Shown here in pieces: positions 55,372 to 61,900 of a stretch of 64,000 nt of DNA. Both the position numbers and the translations under genes were made by a program. The stretch covers positions 89,277 to 153,276 of the forward strand of contig JALFKQ010000035.1 of the NCBI GenBank assembly GCA_022774645.1, written 5' to 3'. Position 1 is the stretch's first letter. Each line of letters begins with the position of its first letter. This DNA comes from Mycoplasmatota bacterium. Lineage in GTDB: Bacteria > Bacillota_I > Bacilli_A > RF39 > UBA660. The notes beneath the pieces are model-generated. The model made no database searches and was not told where the DNA came from. It saw only the letters and a program-made list of their open reading frames with translations.

Positions 55372-55400
55372 TTGCATTTATAAAACTTATATGTTACTAT
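55372..55400 (+). promoter_or_regulatory. Promoter for uracil permease-upp operon
   Basis: TTGCAT (55372-55377), 17-bp spacer, extended -10 TGTTACTAT (TACTAT 55395-55400). Confidence 0.55.
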
Positions 55401-55418
55401 TTATTAAAGGTTAAAAAT

Positions 55419-55505
55419 ATGAGAGAATTGAAGTCAAAAAAATTTGTTGTTTTAAAAAAATGTACTAATATTATTGATTTTAATTCTTTTTTAAATTCTC
55501 ATTGA
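55419..55505 (+). CDS. Candidate attenuator leader peptide (28 aa)
   Basis: AAAGG SD then MRELKSKKFVVLKKCTNIIDFNSFLNSH*; stop codon forms the end of the 5' arm of the downstream terminator. Confidence 0.45.
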   Translation: MRELKSKKFVVLKKCTNIIDFNSFLNSH

Positions 55506-55527
55506 TTTATTCAATGAGATTTTTTTT
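55497..55527 (+). terminator. Strong intrinsic terminator/attenuator upstream of uracil permease
   Basis: TCTCATTGA-tttat-TCAATGAGA followed by 8 T. Confidence 0.8.
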
Positions 55528-55560
55528 GACCTGATTTATTGTTTTAAAAAGGAGGAAAAT

Positions 55561-56838
55561 ATGAAAAGCAGTAAAATGTTACTTGGAGTTAATGACAAAC
55601 CACCATTATTAAAATGGATATTATTATCATTGCAACATGTATTTGCAATGTTTGGAGCAACAATTCTTGTTCCAATTTTAGTTAATAAAGCAGTAGGAAG
55701 TGATGTGTTATCTATACCAGTAGCACTAATAAGTTCTGGAATTGGTACTCTAATTTATATAATATGTACAAAGGGAAAATCACCAGTTTATCTTGGAAGT
55801 TCATTTGCATTTATTACACCAATGATTGTTGCATTTGCTAAATGTGGAAAGGCAAGTGTATTTACAGGAATAATGGCAGTAGGACTAGTTTATGTGCTAG
55901 TAGCTTTAATAATTAAATTAGTAGGTAAAAACTGGATAAATAAATTATTACCACCAATAGTAGTTGGACCCATGATTATGATAATAGGTTTATCACTAGC
56001 ACCAACAGCAATAGAAGAAATAGGATTAAACTTAGAAAAAGTACCTTGGAAAAATATAGTAGTTGCATTAATATCATTCTTAACAACAGGAGTCCTTGCA
56101 GTAAGAGGTAAAGGATTTTTAAAAGTAATACCTTTTTTACTTGGTATGGTTGCAGGATATATTTCATCAATAATACTAGGTATGGTCAATTTAAAAGAAA
56201 TATTTGAAACAAGTTTTATAGCTGTACCGGATTTTTATGTACCATTTGTACATTATAAATTAAATTTTGCAGGGATATTAACAATTGTACCAATAGCTCT
56301 TGTTACTATATCTGAGCATATTGGAGATCACAAAGTTTTAAGTGAAATAATTGATAAAGATTTAATAACTGATCCAGGACTTGATAATACACTTATGGGA
56401 GATGGAATGGCAACATTTGCAGCAGGCTTGATTGGTGGGCCAGCTAACACAACATATGGAGAAAATACATCAGTTGTTGGAATGACAAAAGTAGCATCAG
56501 TTTGGGTTATTGGATTAGCAGCAATAATAGCAATAATATTTGGATTTTTAGGACAATTAACAGCAATTATTTCTTCAATACCAAGTCCAGTTTTAGGAGG
56601 AGTATCAATATTACTTTATGGATTTATATCAGTAAATGGATTAAAAATATTAATTCAAAACAAAGCAGACTTTGAAAATACTAAAAATGTAATAGTAGCT
56701 TCATCAATGTTAGTACTTGGTTTAGGTGGAGCAGCAATATCAATAATTACAAAAAACATATCAGTATCAATATCAGGAATGAGTTTAGCAGCACTAGTTG
56801 GAATATTATTAAATCTATTTATAAAGGAGAGTAAATAA
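55561..56838 (+). CDS. Uracil permease (NCS2 family)
   Basis: LQHVFAMFGATILVPIL; GPANTTYGENTSVVGMTKVAS; PSPVLGGVSILLYGFI. Confidence 0.94.
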   Translation: MKSSKMLLGVNDKPPLLKWILLSLQHVFAMFGATILVPILVNKAVGSDVLSIPVALISSGIGTLIYIICTKGKSPVYLGSSFAFITPMIVAFAKCGKASVFTGIMAVGLVYVLVALIIKLVGKNWINKLLPPIVVGPMIMIIGLSLAPTAIEEIGLNLEKVPWKNIVVALISFLTTGVLAVRGKGFLKVIPFLLGMVAGYISSIILGMVNLKEIFETSFIAVPDFYVPFVHYKLNFAGILTIVPIALVTISEHIGDHKVLSEIIDKDLITDPGLDNTLMGDGMATFAAGLIGGPANTTYGENTSVVGMTKVASVWVIGLAAIIAIIFGFLGQLTAIISSIPSPVLGGVSILLYGFISVNGLKILIQNKADFENTKNVIVASSMLVLGLGGAAISIITKNISVSISGMSLAALVGILLNLFIKESK

Positions 56839-59261: not shown

Positions 59262-59336
59262 GCAGGTATAGTTCAACGGTTAGAATGTGGCCTTGCCAAG
59301 GCTAAGATGTCGGTTCGATTCCGATTACTTGCTCCA
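59262..59336 (+). tRNA. tRNA-Gly(GCC)
   Basis: GCAGGTA...TACTTGC T CCA; anticodon loop TTGCCAA; GGTTCGATTCC T arm. Confidence 0.93.

Positions 59337-59916: not shown

Positions 59917-61900
<1,984 letters not shown>

Follow-up and report, generated by a model that had tools for sequence, protein, structure and literature searches.

We analysed a 64-kb stretch of DNA (the window) from a Bacillota genome, and our results point to the 189 bp in front of its uracil permease and upp genes as a translation-coupled, UTP-sensing attenuator for uracil salvage, similar to those of E. coli pyrBI and pyrE, a reading to which we assign a probability of roughly 0.7. According to a recent review, pyrimidine genes in Gram-positive bacteria are controlled by PyrR, and mechanisms acting on termination or on the start site are mainly Gram-negative (PMC13328217). 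In a literature search that reached subscription papers in part, no leader of this kind was found described before a uracil permease in Bacillota. If our reading is correct, UTP sensing through a paused polymerase has evolved in a further phylum, it seems independently, and is present in dozens of gut Bacillota that lack PyrR; these leaders would then offer a natural setting in which to examine transcription-translation coupling in bacteria expected to have runaway transcription. The attenuator may also explain how gut bacteria with reduced genomes and no pyrB match uracil uptake to need. A broader proposal, which we hold as tentative and somewhat doubtful, is that this is an unrecognised and widespread form of pyrimidine sensing in Bacillota without PyrR, built on a translated, U-rich leader whose second half also pairs with its own first codons, in which UTP would be read by a race between the polymerase finishing the U-rich arm and the ribosome entering the leader, and in which coupling would be re-created where the polymerase may run away.

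The original prediction, made from the letters of the window, had placed a promoter, a Shine-Dalgarno (SD) sequence, a 28-codon open reading frame (ORF) and a terminator in front of the permease, and we recovered each of these elements, and their spacing, to the base. The parts of the locus are as follows:

55372-55400 (+), leader promoter TTGCAT-17-TACTAT, with the -35 at 55372-55377 and the -10 at 55395-55400
55406-55410 (+), leader SD sequence AAAGG, very near the probable 5' end of the transcript
55419-55505 (+), leader ORF of 28 codons, MRELKSKKFVVLKKCTNIIDFNSFLNSH, with its ATG at 55419 and a TGA stop; the frame is kept in relatives
55421-55437 (+), predicted leader hairpin (RNAfold), 5' arm; the matching stem of nine relatives has compensatory changes
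55474-55490 (+), 3' arm of the same predicted hairpin (RNAfold), inside the U-rich tract
55459-55496 (+), U-rich latter half of the leader, with a T fraction of 0.55 (first half, 0.32)
55497-55527 (+), intrinsic terminator with a 9-bp stem, a 5-nt loop and U8; the leader stop is the last 3 nt of its 5' arm
55561-56838 (+), uracil permease (NCS2, UraA/PyrP-like), first regulated gene, over the cut-off of TIGR00801
56838-57464 (+), upp, uracil phosphoribosyltransferase (TIGR01091), second regulated gene, its start overlapping the permease stop

The terminator (TCTCATTGA-TTTAT-TCAATGAGA at 55497-55519, -10.5 kcal/mol, followed by T8 at 55520-55527) lies 33 nt before the permease ATG (55561) and is one of two intrinsic terminators predicted in 4.5 kb, where shuffled sequences give 0.9. 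The promoter by itself is at chance level in this AT-rich DNA, since a promoter scan, under whose threshold the leader promoter itself scored, found 31 against 35 expected in shuffles. An SD-led ORF of 18-55 codons ending at a hairpin terminator occurs exactly once on both strands of the whole window, and that single case is the leader; the survey for similar leaders covered the window and 748 kb of the relatives' loci. The start context of the window's leader ORF (AAAGG) is weaker than that of relatives, which have GAGG or GGGTG at the same place. A conserved ATTTATTG, which repeats the sequence of the terminator loop, is also present 3' of the terminator U-tract, at 55527-55550 in the window and at the same place in L082-L090. 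Elsewhere in the window, a large protein that begins like a serine recombinase (59935-61869) is encoded no more than about 600 bp past a tRNA gene (59262-59333), possibly as part of a mobile element inserted beside the tRNA.

The identity of the two downstream genes is supported by NCBIfam profile scores of 380 bits for the permease (TIGR00801) and 285 bits for upp (TIGR01091), and the best match of the permease is the uracil permease PRK10720, at a score under that model's own cut-off. The assembly that contains the window amounts to 1.4 Mb in 36 contigs and is 93.85% complete, and its near relatives in the public collection are labelled as uncultured Erysipelotrichaceae, Tenericutes or Bacilli MAGs. 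The earlier observation that no PyrR-binding-loop consensus was seen was borne out at the scale of the genome: the PyrR RNA element RF00515 had no match in it, with control genomes giving matches, and no Rfam family matched at gathering score across 55372-55560. At the protein level, no PyrR exceeded the cut-off in the window's genome (an assembly that is 94% complete), where Upp alone matches the phosphoribosyltransferase family, or in 18 genomes of the same genus. Outside the genus, PyrR was over the cut-off in only 1 of 35 genomes of the leader clade; this is the genome of L137 (G115, which also holds L035), where the permease still has the leader. A PyrR-type attenuation overlooked by our search would agree with the status of PyrR as the usual Gram-positive regulator (PMC13328217) and with the PyrR-box motif found at two permeases outside the clade (L096 and L109), but the counts just given for the RNA and the protein make it scarcely credible.

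No pyrB was found in the window's genome (a single match of 146 bits, against a cut-off of 237), so that, judged by this marker, the organism probably relies on uracil salvage. Only one genome of the same genus, G007, has pyrB, which is followed by pyrI, and this genome has no permease. Upstream of its pyrB (L120, 1290-1490) we found TTGCAT-17-TATAAT, a 26-codon ORF with a TTG start and a terminator of -10.4 kcal with the stop codon in its loop; this leader has no U gradient and the TTG start is weak. The resemblance in layout between this attenuator and the permease leader is supportive, not conclusive. Among the Clostridia genomes L140-L149, no leader before pyrB was seen by eye. In genomes G100 and G101 the pyrB matches (L148 and L149, L153 and L154) are split in two adjacent pieces separated by a short gap, possibly by a frameshift or an insertion.

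Ten of the 18 same-genus genomes have the permease and all 10 have the leader layout in front of it, that is, a TTGCA/TTGAA-N17-TATTCT-like promoter, GAGG or AGG, an ORF of 24, 25, 27 or 28 codons with a U-rich end and a stop, a TCTCATCATTTATTGRTGAGA-like terminator with U7-9, an SD sequence and the permease. In nine same-genus loci the stop, TAG or TAA, abuts the terminator; the window's species differs in that its TGA ends the 5' arm. In a quick tree of 107 permeases, 92 form a single clade (support 99) that mixes MAGs labelled Bacilli and Clostridia, and of these 79 have the leader, 11 have no detected leader and 2 have too little upstream sequence (leader state was assigned by eye or from the survey for L021, L034, L036 and L077 in the clade and for L103 outside it). 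What these leaders share is a promoter followed by a very short 5'UTR, then an ORF of 24-47 codons behind an SD sequence, with its stop codon at an intrinsic terminator or within it, and finally the permease. The conservation that the original prediction had counted on therefore exists for the leader ORF, at 10/10 permeases in the genus and 79/92 loci in the clade, and equally for the position of the stop at the terminator and the U-richness before it. Among 101 terminator-bearing regions upstream of permeases, an ORF that follows an SD sequence, has 20 or more codons and ends at the terminator is found in 81; such an ORF arises in 1.75% of dinucleotide shuffles. Beyond the clade we found permeases with the PyrR-box motif (L096, L109), plain ones, and a pair, L102 and L103, with a similar short leader of 17-21 codons that ends at a terminator about 40-110 nt 5' of the permease. 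The two belong to another family within this class, in which no PyrR exceeded the cut-off, and their leader is possibly of independent origin.

The genes upstream of the element vary between species of the genus, and because of this the leader can be assigned to the permease and not to its upstream neighbour. The original prediction had itself raised the possibility that the hairpin is only the terminator of the L,D-transpeptidase gene (ldt), and this is contradicted by the different upstream genes of the relatives. More generally, an ordinary arrangement, in which the hairpin serves just to terminate ldt transcripts, or in which the ORF is a small gene in its own right that brings its terminator with it, would fit the position of the ldt stop, 8 nt 5' of the leader promoter and with no terminator of its own, and the close spacing of stop and terminator, which is normal under runaway transcription (PMC7858274). 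However, the element tracks the permease and not ldt among relatives, the space for a permease promoter 3' of the terminator is scant and the peptide is unconstrained, and we consider this explanation very unlikely.

The distances within the leaders are consistent with ribosomal control of the terminator. A comparable promoter is present in 72 of 76 leaders and lies, measured from the -10 to the start codon, at 15-21 nt in 66 of those 72, which implies a 5'UTR of about 10-14 nt. The stop codon falls between -6 and +27 nt from the start of the terminator stem in the 76 leaders (between -6 and +2 in 39 of them, at +9 in the window). From the terminator to the permease start the median distance is 42 nt, which leaves little room for a promoter, so the permease mRNA probably reads through the terminator. 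Control could also be exerted at initiation, by nucleotide-sensitive reiteration at the GGG or an A-run near the start site: reiterative transcription regulates B. subtilis pyrG and occurs often among the nucleotide genes of S. agalactiae (PMC4448216), and 39 of the 76 leaders have GGGTG 5-9 nt past the -10, where transcription is expected to start. As the main control this is highly improbable, because the GGG is missing there in half of the leaders, the window's included, and because the ORF and the U gradient would be left unexplained. The longer, conserved AGGGTGT box to which this GGG belongs (for example in L007 and L010, just 5' of the leader ATG) may be SD sequence, start site and reiterative-transcription site at once.

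That the leader is translated is well supported by its reading frame. Stops number 277 and 250 in the other two frames of the 76 leaders, against 0, by construction, in the frame itself, and those other frames are open throughout in just 0 and 5 leaders. In eight close ungapped pairs, to which the substitution test was confined, 57 substitutions created no in-frame stop, when 3.5 would be expected if they were random (P = 0.02). The same pairs have 7 synonymous codons against 6.9 expected, which is chance level, and across the leaders the peptide sequence is not conserved and no amino acid run is common to all. A frame that is kept while its peptide is not would be as expected if the act of translating mattered and the product did not. 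A translated leader would also serve attenuation by another signal, such as slow or stalled translation at particular codons, general stress on translation or the nascent peptide, in which case the U-richness would only follow from the use of hydrophobic codons; Phe, Ile, Leu and Val do prevail in the second half of the leader, and B. subtilis has ribosome-mediated attenuation at bmrCD (PMC4191407) and vmlR (PMC9226507). This explanation is unlikely, as the controlled gene is for uracil uptake, the variable peptides have no residue run in common, and U is in excess at third codon positions beyond what the amino acids account for. In particular, the run of codons for the operon's product amino acid that would mark an amino-acid attenuator was not found in this uracil uptake operon, whose leader peptide is unconstrained.

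T makes up 27% of the first half of the leader and 53% of the second, with a rise in 76 of 78 leaders, and each of the three codon positions takes part in it (0.40/0.57/0.61), whereas hydrophobic windows of the permease have the second position alone raised (0.25/0.59/0.37). When the amino acids are kept constant, T stands at the third position 734 times against 598 expected (z 9.2, inflated by relatedness; the leader loci share ancestry and z-scores overstate their independence). Because this excess goes beyond the amino-acid effect, U content of the RNA is favoured, and not merely hydrophobic residues; the comparison of leaders thus argues that selection acts on RNA U content and not on the peptide. 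The NusG pause motif TTNTTT, looked for before the terminator, was found at 56 loci against 59.1 expected in shuffles, with no excess.

A further element, missed by the original prediction, is a conserved and covarying leader hairpin, whose 3' arm is predicted to be formed by the U-rich tract (the window's leader folds at -16.7 kcal/mol in RNAfold). Leaders fold more stably than shuffles that preserve the gradient (mean z -1.5 to -1.6; 31-34 of 76 below -1.65 and none above +1.65), and the pairs found in excess link the stretch from about codon 3 to codon 10 to the U-rich zone roughly 12-35 nt 5' of the terminator. Compensatory changes affect 7 of 29 pairs in the same-genus leaders (n = 9), all seven in the leader stem, with 10 covarying cells (0/500 shuffles as high), and 8 of 22 pairs in the Clostridia leaders (n = 11; 4/500 shuffles), with 13 cells (0/500). 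Prediction and test of the structures used the same alignments, which favours them on percentage paired, and the covariation signal is lost when the pairing is slid by 1-3 columns. This pairing might suggest an RNA-structure switch, with the hairpin as an aptamer or protein-binding site acting on the terminator and translation as secondary, and the stable folding (mean z about -1.55) and the compensatory changes in two clades agree with it. Yet the hairpin varies in sequence and internal structure between clades while the ORF frame is strictly kept, the excess pairing never includes the terminator, and no Rfam match at gathering score points to a described riboswitch family, so a switch of this type is quite improbable. 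A competing antiterminator was not found either, since base pairing between the leader and the terminator's 5' arm does not exceed that of shuffles across the 76 leaders (z +0.18); an AUGAGA:UCUCAU match noted in the window is not common to all relatives and not above shuffles in these leaders. Sequestration of the SD sequence or start codon by the hairpin, seen in 43 of 76, did not exceed shuffled controls, although the stem of the genus does reach the start codon.

Taken together, the comparative anatomy of these leaders supports well the idea that the element works like pyrBI, and the pyrBI-style attenuation put forward in the original prediction stands as far as layout, frame, U content and conservation are concerned; the response to UTP is what we infer from them. 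Transcription would start some 10-13 nt 5' of the leader start codon, which would allow a ribosome to load at once. With plentiful UTP, the polymerase would outpace the ribosome through the U-rich half of the leader, the terminator would fold and transcription would stop before the permease. With scarce UTP, the polymerase would slow down in the U-rich tract of roughly 40 nt, the ribosome would catch up and, on reaching the stop codon, which lies at the terminator's 5' arm or within it, would block folding and permit transcription of permease and upp. The leader hairpin, which pairs early codons with the U-rich tract, would probably either pause the polymerase or hide the leader once the polymerase has outrun the ribosome. 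These steps follow the logic of pyrBI, in which limiting UTP slows the polymerase on a U-rich template and the ribosome blocks the hairpin (PMC10135430), and termination in E. coli fell from about 90% to under 10% when the stop codon was shifted from 28 bp to 5 bp ahead of a terminator (PMC4824070). In B. subtilis, however, the polymerase is reported normally to outrun the ribosomes, and terminators adjoin stop codons without being blocked (PMC7858274), and UTP shortage would therefore have to restore coupling locally. This runaway transcription counts against our reading, as do the 11 of 92 clade members without a detectable leader, the missing excess of TTNTTT, the weaker start context of the window's leader ORF, and the TTG start and lack of a U gradient in the pyrB leader of G007.

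Among known systems, the closest in layout is E. coli pyrBI, with its leader pyrL: both have a promoter, an SD-led ORF, an internal hairpin, a pyrimidine-rich tract, an intrinsic terminator that the ribosome can reach and a pyrimidine gene under control, and neither needs antiterminator pairing. The features that define the pyrBI/pyrE type are found here, namely an apparently translated leader with a ribosome-binding site 3' of the operon promoter, an intrinsic terminator within reach of the ribosome, a U-rich tract selected as RNA, no competing antiterminator and pyrimidine genes downstream. Unlike pyrBI, the element belongs to Bacillota and to uracil salvage, its ORF stops at or in the terminator where pyrL runs through it, its U gradient is much stronger, and its leader hairpin is a long one whose 3' arm is the U-rich tract. 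The leader peptides read also differ, and we do not claim common descent with the enteric leader. At E. coli pyrE (rph-pyrE), translation ends just before the terminator, as in the leaders described here, but the translated part is there a full gene, rph, and here a dedicated short leader. PyrR attenuators (RF00515) likewise control pyrimidine genes of Bacillota, uracil permease included, by premature termination; in the present case there is no PyrR RNA or protein, and we propose that the signal is read by the speeds of polymerase and ribosome. Finally, the bmrCD (PMC4191407) and vmlR (PMC9226507) attenuators of B. subtilis are translated leaders that control a terminator in Bacillota, where antibiotics are sensed, whereas we predict that the leader of the uracil permease senses a nucleotide.
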